Notes under the pieces: model-generated
Database searches by the model: none
What the model was told of the DNA's origin: nothing
Seen by the model: only the letters and a program-made list of their open reading frames with translations
Translations under genes and position numbers: made by a program
Origin: Rhizobiales bacterium 64-17
Lineage (GTDB): Bacteria; Pseudomonadota; Alphaproteobacteria; Rhizobiales; Xanthobacteraceae
Reading direction: 5' to 3'
DNA length: 64,000 bases
Assembly (NCBI GenBank): GCA_001899285.1
Contig: MKWA01000022.1
Coordinates: forward strand, 134,713 to 198,712
Shown here: piece by piece, positions 40,971 through 64,000 of the stretch
How positions within the stretch are numbered: position 1 is the stretch's first letter
Layout: each line of letters starts with the position of its first letter

Positions 40971-41705
40971 ATGGATTCGTCCCTGCTGCCGATCGTCGCG
41001 ATCTTCATCCTCGCCGGTTTCGTCAAAGGTGTGGTCGGCCTTGGTCTGCCGACCGTGTCGATCGCGCTGCTGAGCGTGGTGATGATGCCGGCGCAGGCGG
41101 CGGCGCTGCTGATCGTGCCGTCCTTTGTCACCAATGTCTGGCAGGCGTTTGGCCGCCGTGCGTTGCTGCTGCTGCGCCGGCTCGGCGCGATGCTGGCGAC
41201 CATGGTCGCCGGCACGCTGCTTGGCGGCTGGTGGCTGCCGATCGACAATTCCGGTCGCGCCAGCATGGCGCTCGGCGTGATGCTGATCCTCTATGCGCTG
41301 ATCGGGCTGCTGCTGCCGCGCTTTCATGTCAGCCGCCGGCAGGAAATCTGGTTGGCGGCACCGGTCGGTCTTGCCACCGGCCTTGTCACCGCGATGACCG
41401 GCGTGCTGGTGATCCCCGTGGTGCCCTATCTGCAGGCGCTCGATCTCGAGCGCGACGATCTGGTGCAGGCGCTCGGGATCACCTTCACCGTCTCGACCGT
41501 GGCACTGGCGGCGGTGTTGATCGGCCAGCATCAGCTTTCGGCCGGCGTCGCCGGACCGTCGCTCGCCGCGTTGGTTGCCGCGGTGGCCGGCATGGTGGCG
41601 GGGCAGGAGGTGCGCAAGCGGATTGATCCGGCGCAATTCCGCATCTGGTTCTTCATCGCGCTCTTGGCGCTCGGCGCGCATCTGCTGCTGCACGGCCTGC
41701 TCTGA
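40971..41705 (+). CDS. TauE/SafE-family anion exporter
   Basis: A 244-residue membrane protein with seven or eight helices in two repeated halves. GFVKGVVGLGLPTVSIALL in the first helix pair and LATGLVTAMTGVLVIPVVPYL at the start of the second half are the twin motifs of the TauE/SafE family, which exports sulfite, sulfoacetate and other organic anions. It lies 90 bases before the cyclase gene on the same strand. Substrate unknown. Confidence 0.92.
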   Translation: MDSSLLPIVAIFILAGFVKGVVGLGLPTVSIALLSVVMMPAQAAALLIVPSFVTNVWQAFGRRALLLLRRLGAMLATMVAGTLLGGWWLPIDNSGRASMALGVMLILYALIGLLLPRFHVSRRQEIWLAAPVGLATGLVTAMTGVLVIPVVPYLQALDLERDDLVQALGITFTVSTVALAAVLIGQHQLSAGVAGPSLAALVAAVAGMVAGQEVRKRIDPAQFRIWFFIALLALGAHLLLHGLL

Positions 41706-41795
41706 CCGCACGCCCGCATGCGGTGGACGCGGCTCTCCATGCGAAATCCATGTGCTAGGCTCGGCTGGTCAGTGAACCAAACCCGGACGGCCGTG

Positions 41796-42650
41796 ATGAA
41801 GATTGTCGATCTCTCCCATGTGATGAACGTGCATACGCCCGGCTGGGTCGGTTATGCCGGCAACAAGATGTATTACGCGCAAAATCTGCAGACGGTCCGG
41901 ATCGTCGCGCAGCGGATCGACACGGCGCTGCATGTCGGCACGCATTTCGATGGCGCGATGCATGCGACCGACAATCCGACCGGCGACATGGCGCATCTCC
42001 CGCTCGACTATCTGTGCAATCGCGGCGTCGTCGTCGACATCTCCAAACACATGCACGACTGGGCGGTGATCACGCCGGAGATCATCGAAAGCGCCGGCGC
42101 GGATATCCGCGAGGGCGATATCCTGATTCTGCACACCGGCTGGCACAAGCACTATGAAGGGCAGCCGCAGCAGGATCTGGTGCGCTACTTCTGCTATCAC
42201 CCCGGCCCGAGCCTCGACACGCTGCAATGGATGCTCAAGAAGAAGATAAGGTGGTGGGGCATGGATACCGGCTCCTGCGACCACGCGATGAATACCTCGA
42301 TCCGCTATATGCGGCCCGATCTCGCCGAGGAGTTCACCAAGAAGCATGGCAAAACGCCAGGCGAGTTCTTCGGCACGTTCCATTACACGCACAAGCGGTC
42401 GGGCCGGAAAGTCTCCGCCGACGTGTTCCCGTTCCACAACTGGGGTTTTCAGGAAGGCTTGCTGCACGCCGAGAATATCGGCGGCGACATCGAACTGATG
42501 CTCAACAAGCGCTGCCTGATCGGCGCGTTCCCGTGGCGCTATGAAGGGCTCGAAAGCTGCCCGTGCCGCATCGTCTGCTTCGAGGATGCGGGCGAATCCG
42601 TCGAGGCGGTCGGTGATGCGGCGCGGGCGATCCTGTCGCCGCGCCGCTGA
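41796..42650 (+). CDS. Cyclase-family metal hydrolase (kynurenine-formamidase-like)
   Basis: A 284-residue enzyme of the cyclase/KynB fold. The metal signature HxGTHxDxxxH is present as HVGTHFDGAMH (His46, His50, Asp52, His56). Members hydrolyse amide or lactone bonds (N-formylkynurenine, isatin) using Zn or Mn. DLSHVMNVHTPGW at the start is typical; ATG 41796 is chosen for this reason. It converges with the ABC ATPase gene. Next to importers and an amide-type hydrolase cluster, hydrolysis of a cyclic amide or formyl-amide is plausible but unproven. Confidence 0.92.
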   Translation: MKIVDLSHVMNVHTPGWVGYAGNKMYYAQNLQTVRIVAQRIDTALHVGTHFDGAMHATDNPTGDMAHLPLDYLCNRGVVVDISKHMHDWAVITPEIIESAGADIREGDILILHTGWHKHYEGQPQQDLVRYFCYHPGPSLDTLQWMLKKKIRWWGMDTGSCDHAMNTSIRYMRPDLAEEFTKKHGKTPGEFFGTFHYTHKRSGRKVSADVFPFHNWGFQEGLLHAENIGGDIELMLNKRCLIGAFPWRYEGLESCPCRIVCFEDAGESVEAVGDAARAILSPRR

Positions 42651-42665
42651 ACCCGTCTCGTGACA

Positions 42666-43475
42666 TTACGGCGCGCGGATCAGCCGCGCGTCGGGACTGT
42701 TGCTTTGCAAGGTGGCCTGGATCGCCTCGCGCAGCAGGCCGTAGTCCTCCGGCTTCCATTGCGCGACGTGAATATCGGCGAGCAGCTTCGCCGATTTGCC
42801 GAACACGACGATGCGGTCGCCGACGGCGATCGCTTCCTCTAGCTGGTGCGTGATCAGGATCGCGGTGCTGCCGCATTCGCGCGCCAACGCGAGGAAGGTG
42901 CTGCGCAATTCCGCCGCCGTCACCTCGTCGAGATGCCCAAACGCTTCGTCGGCCAGCAGGATATCCGGCTGCAGCACGAAGGCGCGGGCGATGGCGACGC
43001 GCTGGCGCATGCCGCCGGACAGTTCGTGCGGATAGGCATTGGCGAAGTTTTCGAGGCCGAGGCGCTTGAGCCAGTGCATCGCGCGCTCGCGCTGGATCTT
43101 TTCGTCGACGCCCATCAGCTCCAATGGCAGGCGGGCGTTGTCGTAGCTGGTGCGCCACGGCAACAACCGGTCCTGCTGGAACACGGTCGCCATCTTGCCG
43201 CGGAAGGCATCGAAGTCGGCGTAAGGCGTCTTGCCGTTGATGCGGATCGCGCCCTCGCTCGGCTGTTCGAGGCCGATCATCATGTCGAAGAAGGTCGATT
43301 TGCCGCAGCCGGTCTGACCGACAATGGCGACCACTTCGCGCGGTGCGATGTGCAGGCTCAACCGGTCGATGGCGACCACCGATTGCCCGGTGGTCGCCTG
43401 CCGGAACACCTTGCGCAGGTTCTCGACCTCGATGGCGGTCGGCTCGCTCTTGGTTGTGCTCATGGTTGCGTTCAT
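42666..43475 (-). CDS. SsuB/TauB-type ABC transporter ATPase
   Basis: A 269-residue ATPase with Walker A GQTGCGKSTF, the Q-loop FQQDRLLPWRT (the LPWRT form marks the nitrate/sulfonate/taurine branch), signature LSGGMRQRVAIARA and a D-loop LADEAFGHLDEVT. The start ATG at 43475 overlaps the permease stop (ATGA, 43472-43475). Walker B ends in ADEAF instead of the usual DEPF. Third gene of a binding protein-permease-ATPase operon. Confidence 0.94.
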   Translation of the reverse strand: MNATMSTTKSEPTAIEVENLRKVFRQATTGQSVVAIDRLSLHIAPREVVAIVGQTGCGKSTFFDMMIGLEQPSEGAIRINGKTPYADFDAFRGKMATVFQQDRLLPWRTSYDNARLPLELMGVDEKIQRERAMHWLKRLGLENFANAYPHELSGGMRQRVAIARAFVLQPDILLADEAFGHLDEVTAAELRSTFLALARECGSTAILITHQLEEAIAVGDRIVVFGKSAKLLADIHVAQWKPEDYGLLREAIQATLQSNSPDARLIRAP

Positions 43476-44245
43476 GCGCGCCACCGCAGCACGCGCGCCT
43501 CGAACCGCACCAGCAGTGCTTCCAAAAGGAACAGAAGCACCACCAATACCAGCGTCCACGCGAACACGTCGGCGACCGAGAACAGTTCCTGCGCCACCGC
43601 GAGCTGATGGCCGATGCCGGTGACGGCGCCGACCAGCTCGGCGATGGTAACGACGCGGATCGCCAGACTGAGATTGATCTTCCAGCTGGTGATCAGGCTC
43701 GGCAGGATCGCTGGAAACATCAGCTTGGTGAAATACTGAAACGCCGTCGGTCGGAACGAGCGCATCATGCCGCGCAGATCTTTCGATACGCCGCGCATGG
43801 CATCGAGCGCATCGACCAGAAACACCGGTCCGCACACCGCGATCAGCACGAAGGCGATGCGGAATTCGACGCCGCGGAACCACAGTACCGCGAACAGGAT
43901 CCACGACACGACCGGCACCGCCATCAGGATGCGGACCAGTGGGTGCAGATAGTTTTCCAGGCTCGGCGAGCGGTACATGCCCATGGCGATGACGACGCCG
44001 CCGACGAACGACAGCACCAGCGCGCCGATCACCCGCGCCAGCGTGACGATCACGTCGAGCGGCGTGATCTTCATCAGGCTTTCCCCGATTCGCACGAAAC
44101 TCGGGATCGCGAATGGCGGGATGCCGAGCGATGGCGAGAGCCGGGACATGATCTCCCACAGCACGCAGAAGATCACGATCGAGACGAATGCCTGACGGGG
44201 AAAACGCCCCGTCAGCTCGTTCGCGTGAGCTTGGTCGGAGAGCAT
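43472..44245 (-). CDS. SsuC/TauC-type ABC transporter permease
   Basis: A 257-residue permease with about six helices. The EAA loop appears around FQYFTKLMFPAILPSLITSWKINLSLAI, characteristic of nitrate/sulfonate/taurine-type permeases. It starts 5 bases after the binding-protein stop and overlaps the ATPase gene by four bases. Confidence 0.94.
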   Translation of the reverse strand: MLSDQAHANELTGRFPRQAFVSIVIFCVLWEIMSRLSPSLGIPPFAIPSFVRIGESLMKITPLDVIVTLARVIGALVLSFVGGVVIAMGMYRSPSLENYLHPLVRILMAVPVVSWILFAVLWFRGVEFRIAFVLIAVCGPVFLVDALDAMRGVSKDLRGMMRSFRPTAFQYFTKLMFPAILPSLITSWKINLSLAIRVVTIAELVGAVTGIGHQLAVAQELFSVADVFAWTLVLVVLLFLLEALLVRFEARVLRWRA

Positions 44246-44250
44246 CGGCG

Positions 44251-45246
44251 TTACGGCGTATAGATGATCTTGTCGTCAGCCATCTTCGCGTAAAAACCGG
44301 CTTTCACCGCGCGCTCCATCATGTCGAGCAGCGCCTTTCGCGTCGACGCATCCCAGGCGTTGTCAGCAACGATGTTGAGTCGGTTGCTGCTGACGGCGGC
44401 CTTGAGGATACCGGGCGGCAGTTTGACGTTCTCGACCGCGATCTTGTCGGCCGCGTCGATGTCGGACTTGATGAAAGCCGCGACGTCCTTGAGCGCGGCG
44501 AGCAGCATCTTCGGTGCGTCGGGAACGCGCTTGATGGAATCCTCGCGCATGCCCATCACCAGCTCGTAGCCGTTTTGCCCGGTGATCTCCTTCCATGCAT
44601 CGGCGGCGTTGAAGATGACTTTCCAGGAAGGATTCTGCTTCTGGATAATGCTGGCGAGCGGCTCAATCACCATGGCGGCTTCGACGCGATCGGCTTCGAG
44701 CTGCGCGCGTGCCACCGCGAAGTTGGCGTTGACGACGGTGATGTCCTTGCCGAGGTCGAGCCCCTTGGCGTTGGCATAGATCTTGACGACCTGAAACTGG
44801 CCGCTGCCCATATCGGCGGCAAGCTGCTTGCCCTTGAGGTCGGCGAGCGATTTGATTTTGTCATCCTTCACGAAGATGACGAGGTCGGAGAGGGTCATCG
44901 CGGTGCCAACGATACGCGCCGGCACGCCTTCGATCCGCAGCTTCTGATAGACGGTCGGCCCGCCGACTTGCACGTCGACCTCGCCGGTCGCGAAGCCCGC
45001 GTAATAGGCAGCAATCGACGGATAGGGTTTCAGCTCGAGCTCGAAACCGTGCTTTGCATCGAAACCGCGTACCTTCATGATGTTCCACACGAGCGGCGCG
45101 ATCACCGGCAAGGTCAGGCTGGCGGCGACGATCTTCGGCTTGGTCTGCGCCGAACTCGGTGCGGCGCCACTGAAAACAAAGGCGCTGGCTGCGAGCAGGG
45201 CGATCACCGCGCGGCGCGCGAGGTGCGGACGGATGAAGGGGATCAT
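44251..45246 (-). CDS. NMT1/SsuA-type periplasmic substrate-binding protein
   Basis: A 331-residue type II binding protein. The signal peptide is in residues 1-34 (LARRAVIALLAASAFVFSGAAPSSAQ). The mature part (KPKIVAASLTLPVIAPLVWNIMKVRGF...GFATGEVDVQVGGPTVYQKL) fits the NMT1/SsuA group, which binds taurine, sulfonates, pyrimidine precursors or aromatic acids. ATG 45246 chosen for the signal peptide. It is divergent from the alpha/beta hydrolase gene, with a perfect operator-like palindrome between. Confidence 0.93.
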   Translation of the reverse strand: MIPFIRPHLARRAVIALLAASAFVFSGAAPSSAQTKPKIVAASLTLPVIAPLVWNIMKVRGFDAKHGFELELKPYPSIAAYYAGFATGEVDVQVGGPTVYQKLRIEGVPARIVGTAMTLSDLVIFVKDDKIKSLADLKGKQLAADMGSGQFQVVKIYANAKGLDLGKDITVVNANFAVARAQLEADRVEAAMVIEPLASIIQKQNPSWKVIFNAADAWKEITGQNGYELVMGMREDSIKRVPDAPKMLLAALKDVAAFIKSDIDAADKIAVENVKLPPGILKAAVSSNRLNIVADNAWDASTRKALLDMMERAVKAGFYAKMADDKIIYTP

Positions 45247-45497: not shown

Positions 45498-46355
45498 ATG
45501 CCGCACGTCACCGCAAGCGATAGTACTCGTCTTTATTACGAGGAGGCCGGCACCGGCACGCCGGTCGTTTTCGTCCACGAATACGCAGCCGATTACCGCA
45601 CCTGGGAGCCGCAGATGCAGCGGTTCTCGCGGTCGCACCGCTGCGTCACTTACAGCCAGCGCGGCTATCCGCCGTCCGACATTCCGACCGATCCCGAACG
45701 GTACCTGCAAGACGTCTTCCGCGACGACGTGATCGCCGTCATGGATGCGCTCAAGATCGACAAGGCGCATGTGGTCGGCCATTCCATGGGCGCGGCGACC
45801 GCGCTGCATGTGGGCATCCGTTATCCGGATCGCTGTCTGTCGGTAACCGCGGCCGGCTGCGGCTACGGCTCAAGTCCCGATCCGGCCGTGGTTGAGCAGA
45901 ACCGTGCCGCCTCGCGCGAGACCGGCAAGATGTTCGCGAACGAGCCGATCTCGGTGACGGCGCCGCGCTATGCCAACGGCCCGACGCGGCAGACGCACAA
46001 GAACAAGGATCCGCGCGGCTTCGCGCATTTCGTGCAGATGCTGAGCGAGCATTCGGCGATCGGCCATTCGCTGACCATGATCAATCTGCAGGCGCGCCGG
46101 CCGACGCTCTATGAAATGGAAGCCGACCTCAAGGCGTTCAAGCCGCCGCTTCTCGTGATCGTCGGCGACGAGGACGACTGGTGCGTCGATGCCAGCATCT
46201 ATCTGCGTCGTACGGTGCCGACGGCCGGTCTGATGGTGATCCCGCGTTCGGGACACACCATCACCAGCGAGGAGCCGGACAAGTTCAACGCAGCGTTGGC
46301 CGAACTGTTCGCCGACGCCGAAGCGGGCCGCTGGCTCGCCCACAAACCCGCTTAA
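45498..46355 (+). CDS. Alpha/beta hydrolase
   Basis: A 285-residue serine hydrolase. Nucleophile Ser96 in GHSMGAA, the acid probably in VGDEDDWCVDA, and His253 in RSGHTI complete the triad; the oxyanion region VFVHEYAADYRTW has HE in place of the common HG. It belongs to the broad group of esterases, C-C hydrolases and amide hydrolases; N-formylmaleamate deformylase of nicotinate breakdown has this fold too, but I cannot assign it. It starts an operon with the SDR-fold gene, 17 bases on, and a Liv-type importer further down. Confidence 0.93.
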   Translation: MPHVTASDSTRLYYEEAGTGTPVVFVHEYAADYRTWEPQMQRFSRSHRCVTYSQRGYPPSDIPTDPERYLQDVFRDDVIAVMDALKIDKAHVVGHSMGAATALHVGIRYPDRCLSVTAAGCGYGSSPDPAVVEQNRAASRETGKMFANEPISVTAPRYANGPTRQTHKNKDPRGFAHFVQMLSEHSAIGHSLTMINLQARRPTLYEMEADLKAFKPPLLVIVGDEDDWCVDASIYLRRTVPTAGLMVIPRSGHTITSEEPDKFNAALAELFADAEAGRWLAHKPA

Positions 46356-46372: not shown

Positions 46373-47185
46373 ATGGATCTCAAACTCAAGGGCAAGACCG
46401 CCGTTGTCACCGGCGGCAGCGAAGGCATCGGCAAGGGCATCGCGCTGACGCTTGCACGGGAAGGCGTCGATGTCGCGATCTGCGCGCGGCGCATGGAGCC
46501 GCTGAAGGCGGCTGCGGAGGAAATCGCCAAGGCCACCGGCCGCAAGATCGTGCCGATCACCGCCGATCTGCGCAGCGATGCCGACGCCAAGAAGTTCATT
46601 GCCGAGGCGCACAAGGCGCTCGGCCGCATCGATATCATGGTCAACAATGCCGGTTCGGCCGCCGGCGGCGTGATCGAGCATCTCAGCGAGGACGACTGGG
46701 AGAAGGGGCTGCAGCTCAAATTCATGGGCTATGTGCGCTGCCTGCGCTACGTGCTGCCGATCATGGTCAAGCAAAACGGCGGCCGCGTCGTCAATCTGAT
46801 CGGCAATGACGGCGTCAAGCCGTCCTATTGGGAAATCTGCCCCGGCGCGGCCAATGCCGCCGGCCAGAACCTGACGAAATCGCTCGCCGGACAATACGGC
46901 AGCCACAACATCAGCTTCTGCGCGGTCAATCCGGGCCCGGTGCGCACCGAGCGCTGGGCTGGCCTGGTGGACGCCATGGCGCGCGACATGAAGATTTCAC
47001 GCGAGGAAGCCGACAAGCTGGCGCCGGCGTCGATCCCGCTCGGCCGCATCGCCGAGGTGGAAGAGGTCGCCAATCTGGTGGTGATGATGGCCTCGCCGCT
47101 GATGCACATGGCCAACGGCACGATGATCGAGATCGACGGAGGCCAGGACAAGCCGCTGATGGATCGCTTCCGCGATAAAAAGTGA
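46373..47185 (+). CDS. SDR-fold protein with altered catalytic triad
   Basis: A 270-residue short-chain dehydrogenase fold. The cofactor site looks intact: TGGSEGIGKG (13-22) and NNAG (91-94). The catalytic residues do not: aligning to FabG, the Ser position is Gly144, the Tyr is Pro157 and the Lys is Asn161 (segment CPGAANAAGQN where YxxxK should be). The C-terminal part (VNPGPVRTERW, IDGGQ) aligns without gaps, so this is not a frameshift. It may bind NAD(P) but be inactive as a usual dehydrogenase, or use other chemistry. AGGAGAGACGGACC precedes ATG 46373. Confidence 0.92.
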   Translation: MDLKLKGKTAVVTGGSEGIGKGIALTLAREGVDVAICARRMEPLKAAAEEIAKATGRKIVPITADLRSDADAKKFIAEAHKALGRIDIMVNNAGSAAGGVIEHLSEDDWEKGLQLKFMGYVRCLRYVLPIMVKQNGGRVVNLIGNDGVKPSYWEICPGAANAAGQNLTKSLAGQYGSHNISFCAVNPGPVRTERWAGLVDAMARDMKISREEADKLAPASIPLGRIAEVEEVANLVVMMASPLMHMANGTMIEIDGGQDKPLMDRFRDKK

Positions 47186-47360: not shown

Positions 47361-48587
47361 ATGGACAATCGTCATCTGCACAAGCGTTACCTGCTGACCG
47401 TTGCGCTCGCCGGTGCTGCCGCGATCGCGCTGTTCCGTCCCGCGTCCGCGCAGGACACCATCAAGATCGGCGAGTTGAACAGTTACAAGTCGCAGCCGGC
47501 GTTCCTCGATCCCTACAAGAAGGGCTGGGAACTGGCGATCGAGGAGATCAACGCCAAGGGTGGCGTGCTCGGCAAGAAACTCGAAGTGGTCTCGCGTGAC
47601 GACGGCGCCAATCCAGGCGAGGCGGTGCGTGTCGCCGAGGAACTCGTCACCCGCGAAGGCGTGCCGCTGATTTCCGGTACCTTCCTGTCGCATATCGGTC
47701 TGGCGGTGACGAATTTCGCAGGCCAGAAGAAGGTGTTCTTCCTCGCCGCCGAGCCGCTGACCGACAAGATCACCTGGCAGAACGGCAACAAATACACCTA
47801 TCGCCTGCGCTCCTCGACCTACATGCAGGTGGCGATGCTGATGCCCGCCGCGAAAGCGCTGAAAGCGAAGCGCTGGGCGCTGGTCTATCCGAACTTCGAA
47901 TATGGCCAGTCGGCGGCCGAGAACTTCAAGGCGCTGATGAAGAAAGCGCAGCCTGACGTGGAATTCGTCACCGAGCAGGCACCGCCGCTCGGCAAGATCG
48001 ACGCCGGCGCGGTGGCGCAGGCGATCGACGACGCCAAGCCGGACGCGATCTTCAACGTGTTGTTCGCCGGTGATCTCGCCAAGTTCGTGCGCGAGGGCAA
48101 CACCCGCGGCGTGTTCAAGAATCGCCCGGTGGTGAGCCTGTTGTCCGGCGAGCCGGAATATCTCGATCCGCTCAAGGACGAGGCACCGGTCGGCTGGATC
48201 GTCACCGGCTATCCGCAGGACAAGATCAATACGCCGGAGCACAAGGCGTTCCGCGACGCCTATATGAAGAAGTTCAACGACTATCCGCGGCTCGGCTCGA
48301 TCGTCGGCTACGCGACGATGAAGTCGCTCGCCGCCGGCATCGCCAAGGCCGGCTCGACCGACACCGAGAAGCTGGTGACGGCGTTCGCCGGTCTCAAGGT
48401 CGACAGCCCGTTCGGGCCGTTCATCTATCGCGCCAGCGACCATCAGGCGACCATGGGCGCCTATGTCGGCAAGATCGCGCTGGAGAACGGCAAGGGCACC
48501 ATGACCGACTTCAAATATGTCGACGGCGCGGATGTGCTGCCGCCCGACGATGAAGTGAAGAAGCTGCGCCCGGCGGGCGCGAACTGA
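47361..48587 (+). CDS. Liv-type periplasmic substrate-binding protein
   Basis: A 408-residue class I binding protein with a signal peptide (residues 1-30, ending RPASAQD) and mature start IKIGELNSYKSQPAFLDPYKKGWELAIEEINAKGGVLGKKLEVV. It differs clearly from the pair at 35183 and 37591. Found upstream of a fused LivH-LivM permease and two ATPases, forming a complete second HAAT importer. Ligand unknown. Confidence 0.95.
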   Translation: MDNRHLHKRYLLTVALAGAAAIALFRPASAQDTIKIGELNSYKSQPAFLDPYKKGWELAIEEINAKGGVLGKKLEVVSRDDGANPGEAVRVAEELVTREGVPLISGTFLSHIGLAVTNFAGQKKVFFLAAEPLTDKITWQNGNKYTYRLRSSTYMQVAMLMPAAKALKAKRWALVYPNFEYGQSAAENFKALMKKAQPDVEFVTEQAPPLGKIDAGAVAQAIDDAKPDAIFNVLFAGDLAKFVREGNTRGVFKNRPVVSLLSGEPEYLDPLKDEAPVGWIVTGYPQDKINTPEHKAFRDAYMKKFNDYPRLGSIVGYATMKSLAAGIAKAGSTDTEKLVTAFAGLKVDSPFGPFIYRASDHQATMGAYVGKIALENGKGTMTDFKYVDGADVLPPDDEVKKLRPAGAN

Positions 48588-55315: not shown

Positions 55316-57651
55316 GCGGCGGTCTCCGTCTGTTGGCGCGCGCGCAGCGCGGCGCGGATGCGCTGCGGCGTCGCCGGCATTTCGTCGATGGCGACGCCGA
55401 ACGGCGACAGTGCATCGTTGATGGCGTTCATCACCGCGGCAGGCGAGCCGATGGCGCCGCCTTCGCCGAGGCCCTTGGCCTGAAGATTGGTCGCGGTGGT
55501 GTGGGTTTCAAGGTGATGCAGCTCGATCGGCGGGATTTCATGCGCGGTCGGCGGCAGGAAGTCGGCGAGGGTGGACGACAGGATCGTGCCGTTCTCGTCG
55601 TAGAGGATTTCCTCGAGGATGGCGTTGCCGATGCCCTGGGCGATGCCGCCATGCACCTGACCGTCGGCGATCATCGGATTGATGATGCGGCCGCAGTCCT
55701 CGGCGGCGATGAATTTCTCGACCTTGACCTGTCCGGTTTCGATATCGACCTCGACCATCGCCACATGGCACGCATTGGAAAAGGTGCCCGGCGGATCGTA
55801 GTGGCCGGCCTCGGTCATACCGGGTTCGATCTCACCCTTGAAGCGGTGCGTCTGGTGATAGGCGTCACGCGCGAGCGCGGCGATGGCGATGCTGCGGTCG
55901 GTGCCGGCAACGGTGGCGGCGCTGTCGCCCAGTACGATATCCTCGGGTGCGGCCTCCAGCATATGCGTCGCGAGCTTGATGATCTTGGCGCGCAGCTTCT
56001 GCGCGGCGATCAAGGTTGCGCCGCCGGAAATCACCAGCGAGCGGCTGGCAAAGGTGCCCCAACCGTAAGGCGAGCGATCGGTGTCGCCGTGGATCACCTT
56101 GATCCGCTGCGGCTCGATGCCGAGCTGGTCGGCGACGATCTGCGCCAAAGTAGTGCGCAGGCCCTGACCGTGCGGCGAGGTGCCGATCCGCAATTCGACG
56201 AAGCCGGATGGGTCCATGGTCAGCTCGACCATTTCCCAGCCGGGCGTGATCGCCATGCCGCGCGCTGCGAACGCGGGGCTGCCGTAGCCGGTGCGTTCCG
56301 AGAAGGTGCAGAAGCCGAGGCCGAGATAGCGGCCTTGCTTGCGCAGCGCCTGCTGGCGCGCGCGGAACGCCGGCACGTCCACATGCTTGACGGCAAGCTC
56401 CAACGTTTCCTTGTAGGTCGCCTCGTCGAACACAAGCCCCATGGCCGATGTGTAGGGAAACTGATCGATCAGGTTGCGGCGGCGGATATCGATCGGATTG
56501 ATGCCCAGCTCGACCGCGGCCTTGTCCATCAGCCGTTCCAGCGCAAAGGTGATCACCGGACGCGACACGCCACGATAGGGCGCCATTGGGCAGGTGTTGG
56601 TGGCGACGCCGCGCGCGGTGCACGCATAGTGCCGCACGTCGTAGGGACCGGGGATTTCCGCCATCGCCATCAAGGGTTCGACGCCGCAGGTGGTGGGGAA
56701 GCAGGAATAGGCGCCGATATTGGCGAGCACGTCGGCCGACAGCGCGATCAGCTTGCCGTCGGCATCGAACGCCCCGTCGAGCGCGATATATTGATCGCGG
56801 CTGTGGTAGCTGGCGATCAGGTTCTCGCGGCGATCCTCGGTCCAGGCAAAAGAGCTGCGGTGTTCGCGCGCCAGCCACGCGATCAGCACATATTCCGGCG
56901 GCAGCGACATCTTCTGGCCGAAGCCGCCGCCGACATCGGGCGCGATCACCCGCAGGTCGGATTCCGGCATGTCGAGCAGATCGGCAATGGCGGTGCGCGT
57001 GAGATGCGGCATCTGCGTGGTGCAGGTCAGCGTGATACGCCCGGTCGCCGGATCGTAAGCCGCGTGCGCGGCGCGCGGCTCCATCGGCGTCGCGTTCTGG
57101 CGGCGTGAGCGCGCTTCGAGGCGAACGATCCTGTGTGCGTTGCGCCAGGCGGTGTCGAACTCCGGCGTCTTCACCTGCGCGTTGACGATCACATTGTCCG
57201 GCGCCTCCGGATGCAGCGCCGCGCTTGACGCCGCGTCGCGTGCATCGATCAGCGGCGCCGTCTCGTCGATCTCGACCTCGACCGCATCGGCGATGTCCTC
57301 GGCTTCTTCCTCGCTCGCGGCGATCGCGGCGGCGATACACTCGCCGGTGAAGCGCACGACGCCGTCGGCGAGGATCGGCTGGCCGATCGGCCGGTAGTTG
57401 AACTTGTACAGCATCGGCTTGATCGGCTTCACGCCGGCAAGCTCCGCCGCGGTGACGACGAAGGCGCCGTCCGGCGGCTTGATCTTCTTGATTGTGCCTG
57501 CGGCGACCGGGCTGCGCACGAAGCGCACCCAGTGCGCGGCCGGCAGATCGGCGGTGAAGCGCCCGCGGCCGGTCACCAGCGCCGGGTCTTCCAGCCGCCG
57601 GATGGCGCGGCCGACCCAGGTTGTGCCCGATCCTTTGGTGGCAGCGCTCAT
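55312..57651 (-). CDS. Molybdenum hydroxylase large subunit 2 (xanthine dehydrogenase/CoxL family)
   Basis: A 779-residue Mo-pterin subunit with GGGFGQKMSLPPEY and APYRGVSRP in the active-site loops and the catalytic Glu730 in GEGGAIGSP. Complete, and clearly diverged from the large subunit at 52563. The loop is of the non-CO (form II-like) kind. Its ATG overlaps the stop of the FAD subunit by four bases (57648-57651). Two complete large subunits with one small and one medium subunit suggest either two enzymes sharing electron-transfer partners or a mixed complex. Confidence 0.94.
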   Translation of the reverse strand: MSAATKGSGTTWVGRAIRRLEDPALVTGRGRFTADLPAAHWVRFVRSPVAAGTIKKIKPPDGAFVVTAAELAGVKPIKPMLYKFNYRPIGQPILADGVVRFTGECIAAAIAASEEEAEDIADAVEVEIDETAPLIDARDAASSAALHPEAPDNVIVNAQVKTPEFDTAWRNAHRIVRLEARSRRQNATPMEPRAAHAAYDPATGRITLTCTTQMPHLTRTAIADLLDMPESDLRVIAPDVGGGFGQKMSLPPEYVLIAWLAREHRSSFAWTEDRRENLIASYHSRDQYIALDGAFDADGKLIALSADVLANIGAYSCFPTTCGVEPLMAMAEIPGPYDVRHYACTARGVATNTCPMAPYRGVSRPVITFALERLMDKAAVELGINPIDIRRRNLIDQFPYTSAMGLVFDEATYKETLELAVKHVDVPAFRARQQALRKQGRYLGLGFCTFSERTGYGSPAFAARGMAITPGWEMVELTMDPSGFVELRIGTSPHGQGLRTTLAQIVADQLGIEPQRIKVIHGDTDRSPYGWGTFASRSLVISGGATLIAAQKLRAKIIKLATHMLEAAPEDIVLGDSAATVAGTDRSIAIAALARDAYHQTHRFKGEIEPGMTEAGHYDPPGTFSNACHVAMVEVDIETGQVKVEKFIAAEDCGRIINPMIADGQVHGGIAQGIGNAILEEILYDENGTILSSTLADFLPPTAHEIPPIELHHLETHTTATNLQAKGLGEGGAIGSPAAVMNAINDALSPFGVAIDEMPATPQRIRAALRARQQTETAA

Positions 57652-58505
57652 TTGACCGAGGCTTCCAGCGCGCGCCGCACCACGGCGCGGACCAGATCGC
57701 GGCGATATTCGCCGGTGGTCTGGATATCTTCGAGCGGATCGATCGCGGCGCTGGCGGCTTCCGCCGCCGCGCGGAACGCGGCATCGCCGGGCATCTGGCC
57801 GTTGAGCGCCGCTTCTGCTTCGGGAATGCGGCGCGGGCTCGCTTCCGCGCCGCCGACTCCCACGCGCGCGTCGGCGATGCGGCCGTCAACGATGCGATAG
57901 GTGGCGAGCGCCGCCGACATGGCGAAGTCGCCGGCGCGGCGGCTGAATTCGTTGAAGCCGAACTTGGTCCCGGCCGGCAGCAGCATGTAGCGCGCCTCCG
58001 CCAGCAATTCGTCTTCCTTGAGCGCGGTCGACATCAGACCCTCGAAGAAGTCGCGCGCGGGGATGATGCGCTCGCCGCCCTTGCGTCGCGCCACCAGCTC
58101 GGCGTCGAGCGTCGCGGCGGTCAGACACCATTCCGAGGACGGGTCGGCATGCGCGAGGCTGCCGCACATGGTCCCGCGCATGCGGATCGGATAATGCGCG
58201 ATATTGTGCACGACCGATGCCAGCAGTGCGCCGAGCGGCCCCGGTTCGACCGGCTTGTGGAATGCGCCGTGGCGTACGCGCGCGCCGACGATCAGCATGC
58301 CGTTCTCGACAATGAGTTTATCGAGGCCGGCGACCTCGTTGATGTCGACGAGATGTGCCGGCCGCGCCATGCGGAACGCCATGATCGGCACGAGGCTCTG
58401 CCCGCCGGCCAGAACGCGGCCGTCCTGCGGTGCGACTTCGGCCAGAATCGCCAACGCCTCATCCAGGGTTCGCGGCGTGTGACGAACAAAGGGCGCTGGC
58501 TTCAT
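57648..58505 (-). CDS. Molybdenum hydroxylase FAD-binding medium subunit
   Basis: A 285-residue flavoprotein of the CoxM type. FAD motifs are GGQSLVPIMAFRM and the second loop GSLAHADPSSEW (commonly AGGSLAHADPAAE; here MCGSLAHADP). A C-terminal CO-dehydrogenase flavoprotein domain follows. It is the first of the four hydroxylase genes and begins 12 bases after nadC. Confidence 0.95.
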   Translation of the reverse strand: MKPAPFVRHTPRTLDEALAILAEVAPQDGRVLAGGQSLVPIMAFRMARPAHLVDINEVAGLDKLIVENGMLIVGARVRHGAFHKPVEPGPLGALLASVVHNIAHYPIRMRGTMCGSLAHADPSSEWCLTAATLDAELVARRKGGERIIPARDFFEGLMSTALKEDELLAEARYMLLPAGTKFGFNEFSRRAGDFAMSAALATYRIVDGRIADARVGVGGAEASPRRIPEAEAALNGQMPGDAAFRAAAEAASAAIDPLEDIQTTGEYRRDLVRAVVRRALEASVK

Positions 58506-58517
58506 GGTATTACCTCG

Positions 58518-59351
58518 TCAGGCGTCGTCGAGCCCGATATCGACGGCGGGCGCCGCCTGGATGGTCTTGCTGGTCGAAACATAATCGACGCCGGTCTCGG
58601 CGATCGGCCGCACGGTGTCGAAGCGCACGCCGCCCGACGCTTCCAGCGGAATGCGGCCGGCGACGAGCTTCACCGATTCGCGCATCTCGTCGAGCGGCAT
58701 GTTGTCGAGCATGATGATATCGGCTTTCGCCGCGATCGCATCGCGAACCTGTTCAAGCCGGTCGCATTCGACCTCGATCTTGATCAGACCCGGCACGCGC
58801 GCACGGGCGCGCTCCACCGCCTTGGCGATACTGCCGGCGACCGCGATGTGGTTATCCTTGATCATCACGCCGCCGTCGAGGCCGAGGCGATGATTGGCGC
58901 CGCCGCCGCAGGTCACCGCATGTTTCTCCAGCATGCGCAGGCCGGGCGTGGTCTTGCGGGTGTCGATCAGCTTCGCCTTTGTGCCCTTGATGGCGTCCAT
59001 CCAGCGCGCGGTCTCGGTGGCGATGCCGGAGAGGTGCTGGACGATATTGAGTGCGGTGCGCTCGACGGTGAGGAGGCTGCGCGCCCCGCCGGACACGGCC
59101 AGCAGCGTCGTCTTCGGCTTGCAGCGCGTGCCGTCCTGGGTCTTAACCTCGACCTTCACGGCCGGGTCGTAACGTTTGAAGCAAGCGGCGGCGACGTCGA
59201 TGCCGGCCAGCGACAAATCCTGTCGCGCATTCATATGGAAGGTAGCCTTCGCGTCTGCTTCGATCATCGACAGCGCGGTGAGGTCGCCGTGGCCGATATC
59301 CTCCTCGAGCCAGAGGTCGATCAGGCGATTGACGGAGTAGAGGTCCAGCAT
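58518..59351 (-). CDS. nadC: Nicotinate-nucleotide (quinolinate) phosphoribosyltransferase
   Basis: A 277-residue enzyme that makes nicotinate mononucleotide from quinolinate and PRPP. Catalytic and binding segments are intact: DTRKTTPGLRMLEKHAV, CGGGANHRLGLDGGVMIKDNHI and IMLDNMPLDEMRE, ending with VDYVSTSKTIQAAP. The close fit to NadC/QPRT argues against ModD, the molybdate-operon relative. No nadA or nadB is nearby, but nadX lies 3.5 kb upstream on the same strand. Located at the head of a molybdenum hydroxylase operon, it may serve a pathway for pyridine carboxylates rather than household NAD synthesis. Confidence 0.93.
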   Translation of the reverse strand: MLDLYSVNRLIDLWLEEDIGHGDLTALSMIEADAKATFHMNARQDLSLAGIDVAAACFKRYDPAVKVEVKTQDGTRCKPKTTLLAVSGGARSLLTVERTALNIVQHLSGIATETARWMDAIKGTKAKLIDTRKTTPGLRMLEKHAVTCGGGANHRLGLDGGVMIKDNHIAVAGSIAKAVERARARVPGLIKIEVECDRLEQVRDAIAAKADIIMLDNMPLDEMRESVKLVAGRIPLEASGGVRFDTVRPIAETGVDYVSTSKTIQAAPAVDIGLDDA

Positions 59352-59454: not shown

Positions 59455-60183
59455 CTAACGCGCCGCCGTCCGGTCCAGCAGCAGCAACAGCGCATTGGCG
59501 GAGACGGCGAAAACCGACAGGAACAGGGCCACGGCCATGATGGTGGCGATGTCGCCCAGCCCCATGGCGCTGGTGATCATGAAGCCGAGCCCGCGCTGGG
59601 AGGCGAACATTTCGCCGATCAGCACGCCGAGCAGGGTCAGCGAGAAGCCGAGCCGCGCGCCGGCGAGCACTTCAGGGATCACAGCGGGCAGCGCGACATG
59701 CCATGCCATCTGGCCGGGGGTCAGCCGCATGGTCTCGGCGGTACGCCAGTACACCGGCTTGATCTGCAGGATCGCCTTCATGGTGAAGATCGTCACCGGG
59801 ATCAGGCCGTGCATGGCCCCGAACGCAATCTTGGCGGAGATGCCGAGGCCGAAGCACAGCAGCACCAGCGGGTAGAGCGTCACCTTCGGCAGCGAATAGA
59901 GCGCGATCAGGATCGGCTCGGAGACGATTGCCGAGGTACGGCTCAGGCCGAGCACGACGCCGAGTGCGACGCCGCCGATCAGCGAGATCAGCGCGGCGGC
60001 GACGAACGCGCGGGCGGTTTCCGCGACATTGAGCCAGAACCGCTCGGTGCCGAGCAGCTTGCCGAGATGCTCGACGGTGTCGAGCGGCGAAGTCAGCGCG
60101 ATGTCGCCGGCGATCCAGTGCAGGATTTGCCAGGCGGCAACGATGCCGACGAGAAGCAGGATGAAGTCGACAAGCCGTCTCAT
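59455..60183 (-). CDS. SsuC-type ABC permease (second of two)
   Basis: A 242-residue permease with about six helices. The ATPase-contact loop is in KPVYWRTAETMRLTPGQMAWHVALPAVIPEVLAGARLGFSLTLLGVL, typical of nitrate/sulfonate/NMT1-type transporters. ATG 60183 (MRRLVDF) fits the family. It begins 7 bases after a different permease of the same type, so the transport channel may be a heterodimer. Confidence 0.93.
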   Translation of the reverse strand: MRRLVDFILLLVGIVAAWQILHWIAGDIALTSPLDTVEHLGKLLGTERFWLNVAETARAFVAAALISLIGGVALGVVLGLSRTSAIVSEPILIALYSLPKVTLYPLVLLCFGLGISAKIAFGAMHGLIPVTIFTMKAILQIKPVYWRTAETMRLTPGQMAWHVALPAVIPEVLAGARLGFSLTLLGVLIGEMFASQRGLGFMITSAMGLGDIATIMAVALFLSVFAVSANALLLLLDRTAAR

Positions 60184-60190
60184 CGGCGCC

Positions 60191-60955
60191 TCACCGTCGC
60201 AGCCGGCTCTGCAGCCGGCGGTCGATGGTGTCGAGCACCGCATTGGCGACGGTCGCGACAATGATGACGAGCAGCATCAGCCCGTACATCTTGCGGTTCT
60301 CGAAATTGTTGTAGGCGTAGGCGATCTGGTAGCCGATGCCCTGGCCCGACAGGATGAATTCGGAGGCGATCACGCCGATGAAGGCATAGGCGAAGGCGAG
60401 CTTGATGCCGGTGAACAGATGCGGTGCTGCGGCCGGCAGATCGATCAGCAGTGCGCGGCGCGCAAGCCCCATCCGGTAGATCGCCGCGGTCTTGCGCAGC
60501 ACGCGCGGGATGCGGTCGAGCCCGGTCAGGGTCGAGGCGATCATGGCGACGATCGACAGCAGCACGGCGATGGCGATGATCGCGCGATCGCTCACGCCGA
60601 ACACGACGATGAACACCGGATAGAACATGAAGGTCGGGATCGCGTAATAGCTTGCAAGCAAGGGCTCCAGCGTCGCGCGCAATCGCGGAAGCGCGTGGAT
60701 GGCGATGCCGAGTGCAAAACCCAGCGCGATCGACAGCGCCGAGGCGATCGCCACATCCTGCAAGGTCGAGACGATATCGGCGGTGAACTCGCCGGTTTCG
60801 AGCAGATGCCACAGGCTGGTCGCCATCTCGGACGGCGGCAGCACGACGGTGCGCGGCAATACGCCGAGGCGGCACAGCAACTCGAAGGCCAGAACAAAGG
60901 CGACCACGACCGCGAGGCGAATCCAGCCTTCGCGGGTCAGGCCGCCGCGTTTCAT
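60191..60955 (-). CDS. SsuC-type ABC permease (first of two)
   Basis: A 254-residue permease, about six helices, with the contact loop in LRKTAAIYRMGLARRALLIDLPAAAPHLFTGIKLAFAYAFIGVIASEF. ATG 60955 overlaps the ATPase stop (ATGA, 60952-60955). It is only distantly similar to the neighbouring permease, so this is not a recent duplication. Confidence 0.93.
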   Translation of the reverse strand: MKRGGLTREGWIRLAVVVAFVLAFELLCRLGVLPRTVVLPPSEMATSLWHLLETGEFTADIVSTLQDVAIASALSIALGFALGIAIHALPRLRATLEPLLASYYAIPTFMFYPVFIVVFGVSDRAIIAIAVLLSIVAMIASTLTGLDRIPRVLRKTAAIYRMGLARRALLIDLPAAAPHLFTGIKLAFAYAFIGVIASEFILSGQGIGYQIAYAYNNFENRKMYGLMLLVIIVATVANAVLDTIDRRLQSRLRR

Positions 60956-61788
60956 GGCCGCGTGCCCATCAGCTTGAGCGATTCGACGCGCAACTTCTCC
61001 CACAGCCTTGCTGTCACCGCGCCGAAGCCGGGATCGGAGACGATGCGGCTGTCGCGGTCGCGCGGCCAATGTGTTTCGACGATATCGATGAAGCGGCCCG
61101 GTCTCGCCGACATCACGCCGACACGATCCGACAGCATCGCGGCCTCATCGAGCGCGTGGGTAATCAGCAGCACGGTCGCGCCGGTTTCACGCCACAGCCG
61201 CAGCAGTTCGTCGCCCATCAACAGCCGTGTCTGCTGGTCGAGCGCGCCGAACGGCTCGTCGAGCAAGATCAGACGCGGTTGCAGCACCAGCGTGCGGGCG
61301 ATGCAGACGCGCTGGCGCATGCCGCCGGAGAGTTGCGCCGGATAGGCGCGCTCGAAATCGCGCAGCCCCATGAAGCCGATCGCATAATCGACGCGCTTTT
61401 TGATCTCGGCCTCGTCGACGCCGGCGCGGCGCAGACCGAACGCGACGTTGTCGCGAACCGTCAGCCAGGGAAACGAGGCGTCTTCCTGAAACACGACGCC
61501 GACGCCGTCCGGCACGCCGTCGATCGGCTTGTCTTCGAAGGTGGCCGTCCCGTCGGTCGGTGGCGACAGGCCGGCGAGCACGTCGAGCAGGGTGGACTTG
61601 CCGCAACCGGAAGGTCCGACCACGGCGAAGAATTCGCCGTGATAGAGATCGAGGTCGATGGGTCCGAGCGCATGCAGGCCCGCGCCCGACGCCAGCGGGA
61701 ACACCCGCGTCACGCCGCGCAGTTGCGCGTGGACGTCGCGCGGGGCGATTTCTACGCCGGATGCGGCGCCGTCAGAGGCGGCCGTCAC
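60952..61788 (-). CDS. SsuB/TauB-type ABC ATPase
   Basis: A 278-residue ATPase: Walker A GPSGCGKSTL, Q-loop FQEDASFPWLT, signature LSGGMRQRVCIART, Walker B LILLDEPFGALD. The start is the GTG at 61788, overlapping the binding-protein stop (GTGA); no ATG fits. The first 30 residues are a short extension before the ATPase domain. Confidence 0.94.
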   Translation of the reverse strand: MTAASDGAASGVEIAPRDVHAQLRGVTRVFPLASGAGLHALGPIDLDLYHGEFFAVVGPSGCGKSTLLDVLAGLSPPTDGTATFEDKPIDGVPDGVGVVFQEDASFPWLTVRDNVAFGLRRAGVDEAEIKKRVDYAIGFMGLRDFERAYPAQLSGGMRQRVCIARTLVLQPRLILLDEPFGALDQQTRLLMGDELLRLWRETGATVLLITHALDEAAMLSDRVGVMSARPGRFIDIVETHWPRDRDSRIVSDPGFGAVTARLWEKLRVESLKLMGTRP

Positions 61789-62768
61789 AGCTTGCCTTGC
61801 AGATCCTTGGGCAGGAACGACTGATCGACCACCTTGTTCCAGTCGACGTCCTCTTTCAGTTCGCCGATCAGCTTCAAGCCTTCCGCCGTGCGGTCGAGCT
61901 CGGCGCGGTTGAAGTCGCCGAGACTCCACATCTTCGGGGCGATCATGTTGTGGACCGCTTCCTTGGAGATGGCCGGATCGAAGTTCCACATCTTGTGCAG
62001 GATCGCGGCGGTCTCGTCAGGGTTGGCGTAGATCGCCTCGACCGCGGCGCGGCGGCCGGCGATGATGGCGCGCAGCTTGTCGCCGTTGCTGCGGGCGAAA
62101 TCGCGCGTGGTGATGCCGACCGAGGTTGTCATCGGCGGCAGGATATCTTTCGCCGCGGCGACGGTGCGATAGCGATCCTTGCGGATAATCGACAGCGGTT
62201 CGATCAACGCAGCGGCTGACACCGCGCCCTGTTCGAGCATCGTCAGCGCCGGCGGATAACCGCCGGCGGCGACGCGCGTCACCTTGCCGGCGTCGATGCC
62301 TTTGGCCTTGAGCTCCATCAGGAAGATCATTTCCGACGACGACTTCGGCGAGGTGATCGCTACTTTCTTGTCGACCACGTCGGCGATGGTCTTCACGTCG
62401 GAATTCGGCATCGTCACCAGTGTCGATTCCGCAACGGTGCGCGTGCCGACATTGACGATGACAAGATCAAGCCCTTGCCGCACAGCGGCCAGCGCCGCCG
62501 GCAAGGCCACTTCGCCATAGGGCGTCGTATTGGCGAGAATATTGCGCACCGTGGTACCGCCGCCGGCGGAGCCGATGATGCCGGTGATATCGATGCCGGC
62601 CTTCTTGAACAGGCCCTTTTCCATTCCGACCGCGAACGGCGCGCCATAGAGGCTCTGGCCCCATTGCGTGACGGCGATTTCCTCGGTGTGGGCAGGTGTC
62701 TGGAATGCTGCGCAAGCGATGAGCAGCGGGGCGGCATAACGAAGCAAACGAGTCCTGATGTTGATCAT
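61785..62768 (-). CDS. NMT1-type periplasmic substrate-binding protein
   Basis: A 327-residue type II binding protein with a signal peptide (LLRYAAPLLIACAAFQTPAHTE) and mature start AVTQWGQSLYGAPFAVGMEKGLFKKAGIDITGIIGSAGGG. NMT1-type members bind pyrimidines, aromatic or heterocyclic acids. GGTGGAG precedes ATG 62768. A strong promoter with an operator lies just upstream. It begins the transport operon that runs into nadC and the hydroxylase. Confidence 0.93.
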   Translation of the reverse strand: MINIRTRLLRYAAPLLIACAAFQTPAHTEEIAVTQWGQSLYGAPFAVGMEKGLFKKAGIDITGIIGSAGGGTTVRNILANTTPYGEVALPAALAAVRQGLDLVIVNVGTRTVAESTLVTMPNSDVKTIADVVDKKVAITSPKSSSEMIFLMELKAKGIDAGKVTRVAAGGYPPALTMLEQGAVSAAALIEPLSIIRKDRYRTVAAAKDILPPMTTSVGITTRDFARSNGDKLRAIIAGRRAAVEAIYANPDETAAILHKMWNFDPAISKEAVHNMIAPKMWSLGDFNRAELDRTAEGLKLIGELKEDVDWNKVVDQSFLPKDLQGKL

Positions 62769-62794
62769 GATCTCCACCTGATCGCGGACTTGAG

Positions 62795-62843: not shown

Positions 62844-62885
62844 GAAAGGGTTTTTGCGCGATACGGCACGCGCCGCGGTATTGTC

Positions 62886-63692
62886 TTACGTTCCGACTTT
62901 CAGTTCGGAGACAAGTCCGCGCAGCGTCGCGACCGTCGACAGCGCGACGATCCGACCGGTGCGGGGATTGTCCGACGGCACGTTCTCGATCGCCATGGAG
63001 AAACGCGCGGTGTCGGCATCCACCTCGATGCGATGCGTGTTCAGCGTCAGCGAGGGATCGGCCCAGATCTCGAGTTGCGTGCGGTCAGGTCCGATGCCGG
63101 CGAGACTGAGCGCCACGGCGACGTTCACATTGGCCGGAAAGCCCTTCACGCCGTCGCGGGCGCTGCCGGAAAACACCAGCAGCGGCTTGTCGAGATTTTT
63201 CACCGAGATCTTGTTGTCGACGAGATGCGGCGCGCCCTCGAGGCCGCCCGGCGGCTTGCGCGTGATCATCTTCACCGAGCGGATGTCGCCTTCGGCGGCG
63301 GCGCGCACGGCGTCGAGCGCCAGCAACGCGCCGGACGGCACCAGAATGCGTGCATCCTTCTCCTTGGCGCGCGCCACCAGATCCCAGTTCGGCAGCAGCT
63401 GCCCGACCGACAGTGGCATGAAGATGCGACCGCGATCGATCGCGCTGATGGCGATGTCACGGAACAGCACGGGCGGCAGCATCTCCACCACTACGTCGCA
63501 ATCCTCGGCCAGCGCCGCCGGGGCCTTGAAGGGGATCGTTCCAAGCTCCGGCAGGTTACGCCGCGCCTTGTCCTGGTCGTGCACCGAAACCGCGCCGAGC
63601 GCCAGACCGGGAACGCCCCGGATCAACCGCCGCGCCACGTCGAGGCCGACGCCGCCGAGACCCGCCAGTCCAATCCGCAATACCCGCGCCAT
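62886..63692 (-). CDS. nadX: L-aspartate dehydrogenase
   Basis: A 268-residue NAD(P)-dependent enzyme that oxidises L-aspartate to iminoaspartate, the first step of an alternative NAD pathway. The Rossmann motif is GLAGLGGVG at the N-terminus; the catalytic domain has VPSGALLALDAV, GFPANVNVAVALSLAGIG and NTHRIEV...IENVPSDNPRTG...LSTVATLRGL, all typical of NadX. The start ATG 63692 has GGAGGAG just upstream. It lacks a nadA partner here. It lies 79 bases after the enoyl-CoA hydratase gene and 117 before the transport operon, whose promoter is in between. Confidence 0.92.
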   Translation of the reverse strand: MARVLRIGLAGLGGVGLDVARRLIRGVPGLALGAVSVHDQDKARRNLPELGTIPFKAPAALAEDCDVVVEMLPPVLFRDIAISAIDRGRIFMPLSVGQLLPNWDLVARAKEKDARILVPSGALLALDAVRAAAEGDIRSVKMITRKPPGGLEGAPHLVDNKISVKNLDKPLLVFSGSARDGVKGFPANVNVAVALSLAGIGPDRTQLEIWADPSLTLNTHRIEVDADTARFSMAIENVPSDNPRTGRIVALSTVATLRGLVSELKVGT

Positions 63693-63771
63693 GCCGCTCT
63701 CCTCCGCTTGCAGAGGTGCCTTAGCGAGGTTCCGCACGCCGGTAAACCCGACTCTCCGGTAACCGGTGGTG

Positions 63772-64000
63772 TCAGCGTCCGCGGCCTGTGAAATTCGGCT
63801 TGCGCTTGTTCATGAAGGCGCTGACGCCTTCCTGATAATCCGGCGCGAGGCTGGCATCGCGCTGGCTGTCGCGCTCCAGATCGAGCTGTTGGTCGAGCGT
63901 GTTGTCGGCGGAGGCGTTCAGTGCGCGCTTGATCAGCGACAGGCCATAGGTCGGCGCATTCGCGAAATGCGCGCACAATTTGTGCGCTTCGTCCATCAGC
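63772..64000 (-). CDS. Enoyl-CoA hydratase/isomerase family, C-terminal part (cut by window edge)
   Basis: The last 75 or so residues of a crotonase-family protein; the N-terminal part lies beyond the right edge. AHKLCAHFANAPTYGLSLIKRALNAS, QLDLERDSQRDASLAPDYQEGVSAFMNKRKPNFTGRG is the usual C-terminus, close to PaaG-type isomerases or hydratases of aromatic-acid CoA pathways. The Met at 63996 is internal. Same strand as nadX. Confidence 0.9.
   Translation of the reverse strand, partial: LMDEAHKLCAHFANAPTYGLSLIKRALNASADNTLDQQLDLERDSQRDASLAPDYQEGVSAFMNKRKPNFTGRGR

Follow-up and report, generated by a model that had tools for sequence, protein, structure and literature searches.

Gene content of the island

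The 64,000-nucleotide stretch of contig MKWA01000022.1 from Rhizobiales bacterium 64-17 analysed here (the window) ends in a gene island in which nadC, encoding quinolinate phosphoribosyltransferase, stands between a complete ATP-binding cassette (ABC) importer and a two-headed molybdenum (Mo) hydroxylase. Open-reading-frame translation and family scans recovered every gene that an earlier sequence-only reading had named, each in its place (Table 1). Among them is the short-chain dehydrogenase/reductase (SDR)-fold protein described there as catalytically altered, which by eye has no Y-x-x-x-K, presumably the usual SDR catalytic motif, at the usual place. That reading had left out the TauE exporter, the PF04199 cyclase-family hydrolase, and the ATPase and permease of the second NMT1-type importer.

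The minus-strand genes follow one another in the order FAD enzyme, SDR, PaaG-type isomerase, nadX, SBP61-ATPase-permease-permease-nadC-M-L2-S-L1. Between L1 and the FAD enzyme, adjacent genes of this run are spaced by −4 to 108 bp, with 12 bp between nadC and the longest start of M, and the genes may be co-transcribed. The gene run extends beyond the window end with the SDR, the FAD enzyme and a second Liv importer, to ~71915. Promoter and terminator scans gave scores near the shuffled mean, Rfam returned zero matches in 38000-64000, and no tRNA was found in the window.

Table 1 Features of the window island and of related loci
Feature	Position	Strand	Evidence or remark
TauE/SafE-type exporter	40971-41705	+	
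Cyclase-family hydrolase	41772-42650	+	PF04199
Second NMT1-type ABC importer: ATPase, permease, binding protein	42666-45246	-	
Alpha/beta hydrolase	45498-46355	+	
SDR-fold protein, altered catalytic motif	46373-47185	+	
Liv/Urt-type importer: binding protein, fused permease, two ATPases	47361-52033	+	
MarR regulator	52108-52566	+	MarR
Mo hydroxylase large subunit L1 (Kdh-like)	52563-54833	-	MoCoBD_1/2, Ald_Xan_dh_C; closest solved chain 6-hydroxypseudooxynicotine dehydrogenase (Kdh), 616 bits
Mo hydroxylase [2Fe-2S] small subunit S	54833-55315	-	Translation; Cys pattern
Mo hydroxylase large subunit L2 (quinoline-oxidoreductase-like)	55312-57651	-	MoCoBD_1/2; closest solved chain quinoline 2-oxidoreductase, 489 bits
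Mo hydroxylase FAD subunit M	57648-58505	-	FAD_binding_5, CO_deh_flav_C
NadC, quinolinate phosphoribosyltransferase	58518-59351	-	TIGR00078 318.9 bits, curated cut-off 198.4
ABC permease A, candidate quinolinate importer	59455-60183	-	BPD_transp_1
ABC permease B	60191-60955	-	BPD_transp_1
ABC ATPase	60952-61788	-	Translation
NMT1/SsuA-type binding protein SBP61	61785-62777	-	NMT1
nadX-type dehydrogenase	62886-63692	-	PRK13302 343 bits, cut-off 253
Crotonase, PaaG-type	63772-~64563	-	382 bits, PaaG cut-off 345; 5' part beyond window end
G047 Mo hydroxylase, IclR, enoyl-CoA hydratase, UbiD, TctC and importer-nadC	L206 14618-19341, L043 1736-10411	same strand	
nadC, then fused PhnN-NMP phosphorylase, with TRAP-TAXI importer	L056 10001-12908		
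nadC, fused PhnN-NMP phosphorylase, TRAP-TAXI	L163 10725-16964		Four genes, one run; Pacificitalea manganoxidans plasmid

Conservation of the island

The 30 called genes between window position 40971 and ~71915 (31 kb) were compared gene by gene with those of congeners. Two genomes (G011 and G020) have same-order counterparts of all 30, with a few extra genes interspersed, and G041 retains 26, a TRAP-TAXI pair adjoining nadC in place of the four ABC importer genes. Where the island could be seen in part only, in G016 and G001, the 11 and 19 genes covered are consistent with this order; the G016 locus likewise has a TRAP-TAXI pair by nadC where other islands have the ABC importer. Such conservation in congeners excludes a chance grouping.

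Protein identities are mostly 65-93%, with the near-identical G001 set aside. TauE is less conserved (51-52% in G011, G020 and G041), and the cyclase-family hydrolase is 81-93% identical in these three and in G283, a genome of another genus. In G016, G020 and G041, three of the six islands, an additional amidohydrolase and extradiol dioxygenase separate the crotonase from nadX. Several small proteins of window 5066-9668 have relatives (35-71% identity) in the G020 island (L151 6618-8745), between the second importer and the cyclase.

NadC and NAD supply in the genus

NadC aligns nearly end to end with the solved NadC structures 1x1o and 3gnn, and conserves ER..LN, DTRKTTPGLR, GGGxNHR, KDNH or KENH, and LDN, which we take to be its substrate motifs. 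The genome, rated 100% complete, contains one nadC match, and a genome-wide search gave no nadA match anywhere in it. The gene set therefore has the form of a quinolinate salvage system, NadC present and NadA absent, and not that of a de novo NAD operon with nadX, nadA and nadC together. The earlier reading had itself named two findings that would speak against it, a linkage lost in relatives and a nadA simply located elsewhere; neither was encountered.

Across the genus, nadA was found in 1 of 43 genomes, own included, and in 13 of the 16 genomes of other families searched; 28 of these 43 reach 90% completeness or more with contamination of 5% or less, and some single absences may be gaps. 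The sole holder, G015, has its match at G015:C39:3337-4221 and gave no nadC match, possibly a case of contamination. With two weaker matches, in G004 and G023, left out of the count, nadC exceeded the cut-off in 14 of 36 genus genomes, and a NAPRT-family match was present in all 36; the one in the own genome is a nicotinate phosphoribosyltransferase, over the cut-off. With nadA rare, nadC patchy and NAPRT universal in this set, the genus most likely lives by salvage, with nadC as an accessory gene there.

The accessory NadC group and its importers

A quick tree of 114 rows places the window NadC with the NadC of Bosea, Bradyrhizobium, Caballeronia, Variovorax, Pseudomonas and others. The smallest fork with all 30 accessory rows also includes the long-branched L073, and L072, which duplicates one congener. 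We scanned 8 kb around nadC in the 30 accessory loci and in 67 of the remaining ones, counting as an importer part any match to SBP61, TAXI, TRAP or TctC. Such a part lies near nadC in 26 of 30 accessory loci and in none of the 67 others, whereas nadA lies near nadC in none of the 30 and in 34 of the 67. PhnN together with a nucleoside monophosphate (NMP) phosphorylase accompanies nadC in 20 accessory loci; PhnN alone does so in one of the others (L069). Fisher values are tiny, and serve only to rank effects, given the kinship among the loci and the short length of some.

In the genus, each of the 14 nadC loci has an ABC or TRAP-TAXI importer by nadC. Outside it, an importer was seen in 12 of 16 accessory loci, and none at L059, L064, L068 and L164. 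The 8-kb scan found permease A at 12 of the 30 loci, the ATPase is 95% identical in G001 and 73-85% identical in the ten other ABC-type accessory loci, and SBP61 is 61-68% identical to nadC-linked binding proteins of five other organisms. The predicted structure of SBP61 had a mean pLDDT (predicted local distance difference test) of 59 and was not used. One TctC query matched nothing in the 8 kb around the window nadC, which sets the locus apart from the Bordetella form. Where that form has the regulator NadQ by nadC, the regulator seen here is MarR.

The two-headed Mo hydroxylase

The alignments of L1 and L2 with their closest solved relatives (Table 1) run nearly end to end and include the region of the glutamate that we take to be catalytic. 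The S frame was identified by translation, family scans having covered another frame (54942-55415) without a match there. Eight of the nine cysteines in its product form two groups of four, presumably ligands of two [2Fe-2S] clusters. Mo domains, the two clusters (by Cys pattern only) and an FAD subunit place the enzyme in the xanthine oxidase family. Nicotinate dehydrogenase is not the closest solved relative, as Kdh and quinoline 2-oxidoreductase both outrank 3hrd. In support of the pyridine-type pathway proposed earlier, both large subunits have pyridine or quinoline hydroxylases as their nearest solved relatives.

In the available text of PMC8305194, Kdh performs the second hydroxylation step of nicotine breakdown. 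Judging from these similarities, it is reasonable that two heads with a common S and M would carry out a first and a second ring hydroxylation. The PF04199 hydrolase, for which an arylformamidase model matched far under its cut-off (29.6 against 223 bits), would then open the resulting lactam.

Separability of the importer-nadC unit and the Mo core

G283, of another genus in the same family, has M-L2-S-L1, MarR, the Liv importer, the SDR, the alpha/beta hydrolase, the second importer and the cyclase, and neither nadC, nadX nor SBP61 was found in the 39.8 kb examined. A nicotinate phosphoribosyltransferase-like protein, recognised by eye, adjoins the cyclase at the end of this nadC-less island (L186/L187, 35500 of the joined stretch). 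In looser form, M-L2-S-L1, the Liv importer and the cyclase are kept in G038, G405, G278 and G118, from three other families, with no nadC within the 25-40 kb stretch examined. Because these five genomes have the core without it, the Mo core is independent of a nearby nadC.

From the side of nadC, a Mo large subunit was found within 8 kb in 7 of the 30 accessory loci. The nearest NadC proteins in the tree after that of G001 belong to G009 and G047, where importer-nadC is present and Mo genes of the window type are absent from the locus. The two parts of the island therefore appear partly separable. A Mo hydroxylase near nadC-PhnN at L060 was considered and not used as support, its neighbours looking by eye like a cox operon.

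The nadX-type gene

The earlier reading made NadX a supplier of iminoaspartate; without NadA this product leads nowhere known, and the relatives examined lie in catabolic operons. These were three of ten listed among 107 records (Bosea, Azospirillum and Mesorhizobium plasmids), and they sit in ectoine-type or RidA/amidase operons. In the accessory loci, importer-nadC occurs without nadX in 24 of 30. NadX is better read as a catabolic enzyme; a role in NAD synthesis was not our first choice, and the products listed for those operons include none from an NAD gene.

Two of the plasmid runs are alike (L202 10923-16196 and L201 13001-16255): a nadX-type gene is accompanied by a polysaccharide-deacetylase-family protein, an SDR, RraA and a sugar-type ABC importer, with RidA nearby. 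In the third (L203 6874-10735), the nadX-type dehydrogenase gene directly follows the ehuBCDA ectoine importer genes.

Interpretation of the island

Our preferred reading, which we hold to be slightly more likely than not, is that the conserved island joins a quinolinate-salvage unit, consisting of importer and NadC, to a catabolic core for a putative N-heteroaromatic compound. In the salvage unit, the ABC importer would take up quinolinate, and NadC would convert it with phosphoribosyl pyrophosphate (PRPP) to nicotinate mononucleotide (NaMN) and CO2, supplying NAD without NadA. In the core, the Mo hydroxylase, with its common S and M and two large subunits, would hydroxylate the ring twice, and the ring would be opened with the cyclase-family hydrolase, the alpha/beta hydrolase and the SDR; the further importers would belong here. 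The nadX-type enzyme, the PaaG-type isomerase, the second SDR and the FAD enzyme, upstream in the same run, probably act in later steps, NadX deaminating an aspartate-like fragment. Of the catabolic system proposed from the letters alone, the conserved linkage, the lack of nadA, the pyridine-type Mo relatives and the importer by nadC are supported; NadX as supplier and the Mo hydroxylase as stand-in for NadA are not.

Several observations weigh against this reading. Support for the accessory-group fork is 84, under the 95 mark, in the quick tree. The genome has a nicotinate phosphoribosyltransferase, and nadC is therefore not strictly needed given nicotinate. At G047, importer-nadC lies ~5 kb from another Mo hydroxylase (M-S-L), upstream on the same strand, whose M, S and large subunit are 38%, 59% and 39% identical to those of the window and whose large subunit has quinoline 2-oxidoreductase as its nearest solved chain (466 bits); the run upstream of importer-nadC adds IclR, an enoyl-CoA hydratase, a UbiD decarboxylase and TctC. 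At G009, UbiD and a lone Mo large subunit of a third type lie 10-12 kb from nadC, past pilus genes. The tight spacing of nadC and the Mo genes, with the G047 locus, suggests a shared pathway and not two neighbouring units. A nadC unit linked again to ring-hydroxylating, non-orthologous Mo enzymes makes a shared substrate more favoured; the G047 locus thus lowers our confidence in two units and raises that in one pathway.

Such a single pathway would have quinolinate, or a close pyridine dicarboxylate, as growth substrate, the Mo hydroxylase leading to 6-hydroxyquinolinate and onward, and NadC diverting a little to NAD. To the short nadC-M interval and the G047 and G009 loci it adds in its favour the similarity of L1 and L2 to pyridine and quinoline hydroxylases and the amidohydrolase and extradiol dioxygenase inserted in half of the islands. 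However, the Mo core, Liv importer and cyclase exist without nadC in G283, and more loosely in the four genomes of other families, so the substrate of the core need not be that of NadC, and a Mo large subunit is missing from the scanned 8 kb at most accessory nadC loci. We regard one pathway as a serious but rather unlikely explanation.

Import is the simplest source of quinolinate. The own genome nevertheless has two genes for 3-hydroxyanthranilate dioxygenase (HAO) over the curated cut-off, possible internal makers of quinolinate, and HAO occurs in five of the six genomes with a Mo-type nadC and in 3 of the 30 remaining congeners, an association between related genomes that does not amount to a probability. 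Both findings count against salvage from outside and for a scheme in which HAO cleaves 3-hydroxyanthranilate, the product cyclises, NadC feeds it to NAD and the importer carries another compound. One HAO gene follows a complete Liv-type importer directly (L142 4929-10368), and the other adjoins another Mo hydroxylase large subunit (L143 9673-12512). No tryptophan dioxygenase was found in the own genome, which makes a full kynurenine route there unlikely; in the genus it was found in 4 of 43 genomes, including the Mo-type G011. Since 9 of the 14 genus genomes with nadC lack an HAO match, yet have an importer at nadC like all 14, and since the G047 unit lies near a Mo hydroxylase, we consider internal quinolinate improbable.

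Least probable by far is that NadX and the Mo hydroxylase take the place of NadA in a novel synthesis of quinolinate. The genome does lack nadA, and nadX and the Mo genes do flank importer and nadC. Mo hydroxylases, however, put a water-derived hydroxyl on an existing ring and are not known to build one; moreover, the Mo core is found without nadC, a Mo large subunit attends few accessory loci, most importer-nadC sets do without nadX, and the nadX relatives have catabolic neighbours.

Sister loci with PhnN and an AMP-phosphorylase-like enzyme

In the 20 accessory loci with PhnN, nadC lies 5-55 bp from it, and the phosphorylase is fused to PhnN or beside it. At L056, from Bosea vaviloviae SD260, PhnN scored 190.6 bits against a cut-off of 156 (TIGR02322) and the phosphorylase 590 against 434 (PRK04350). 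The nearest solved chain to the nadC-linked phosphorylase is PDB 4ga5, which we take to be the AMP phosphorylase of T. kodakarensis. Beside the conserved SIxSKK motif, whose positions we presumed to map to the base site, linked enzymes have R452, W453 and S454 where unlinked ones have E, Q and M (20 linked rows against 7 unlinked, two of these being one G013 gene and several partial). These residues could suit an acidic base, a reading of the alignment that is suggestive only.

Among 12 genomes outside the genus, nadA exceeded the cut-off in G063, G065, G066 and G071, and in G064 it was found as two pieces, each under the cut-off. All five have a second nadC. The PhnN-phosphorylase set lies by the accessory nadC in G063-G066; no neighbours are visible at the short G071 locus (L068). 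Three hosts, and probably a fourth, thus combine the set with nadA and a second nadC, and G063-G066 and G071 should be able to make NAD without the accessory nadC.

We tentatively propose, as a possibility and not an expectation, that the accessory NadC group is quinolinate-consuming and catabolic, with a PRPP-recycling cycle in the 20 loci. NadC would convert quinolinate and PRPP to NaMN, CO2 and pyrophosphate, the AMP-phosphorylase-like enzyme would split NaMN with phosphate into nicotinate and ribose 1,5-bisphosphate, and PhnN would regenerate PRPP from the latter with ATP. PRPP would then serve as a carrier, regenerated in each round, on which a pyridine acid is decarboxylated, quinolinate giving nicotinate and CO2. 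In islands of the window type, the two Mo hydroxylase heads would replace the cycle as the downstream route. No gene for nicotinate degradation was recognised among ten proteins around four nadC-PhnN loci (L061, L056, L057 and L038), an argument against a dedicated downstream route. The sober alternative is plain PRPP supply to NadC, a role proposed for phnN by nadC in the accessible portion of PMC11452294.

The cycle is not claimed for the window, since the own genome lacks the phosphorylase: its two NMP phosphorylase matches, 22.5 and 18.5 bits, fall far under the cut-off and were rejected. No phosphorylase was found within 8 kb in any of the six Mo-type loci. Some congeners have a higher-scoring NMP phosphorylase away from nadC, its neighbours in G011, G013 and G016 being unlike those at nadC loci.

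Significance and comparison with known systems

Complete importers of two types accompany nadC in several genera and are direct candidates for quinolinate uptake, and the island physically joins the apparent uptake of a NAD precursor to the apparent breakdown of an N-heterocycle. Quinolinate salvage itself is known; the stronger, still unproven lead lies in the sister loci, not in the window. If their cycle is true, PRPP is used as a catalytic carrier in catabolism, for which we know of no described pathway, and the open-licence papers listed for the enzyme set and for quinolinate uptake include no such case.

Salvage of quinolinate by NadC without NadA has been described for Bordetella and Streptococcus, in the portion of PMC11452294 available, and the island is alike in keeping NadC without NadA and in having a binding-protein gene by nadC. 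That portion reports no membrane domain near the quinolinate binders Bug69 and Bug27, and notes phnN by nadC and bug27 in Variovorax. In contrast to these orphan TctC proteins, the island has a complete ABC importer (TRAP-TAXI in sister loci), and, unlike the Bordetella and Streptococcus systems, its salvage unit is set in a Mo hydroxylase island. The sister-locus phosphorylase resembles the archaeal AMP phosphorylase that goes with ribose 1,5-bisphosphate metabolism, but is fused to or beside PhnN and nadC. Kdh and quinoline 2-oxidoreductase share the large-subunit family of L1 and L2; unlike them, the island pairs two different large-subunit genes with one S and one M.

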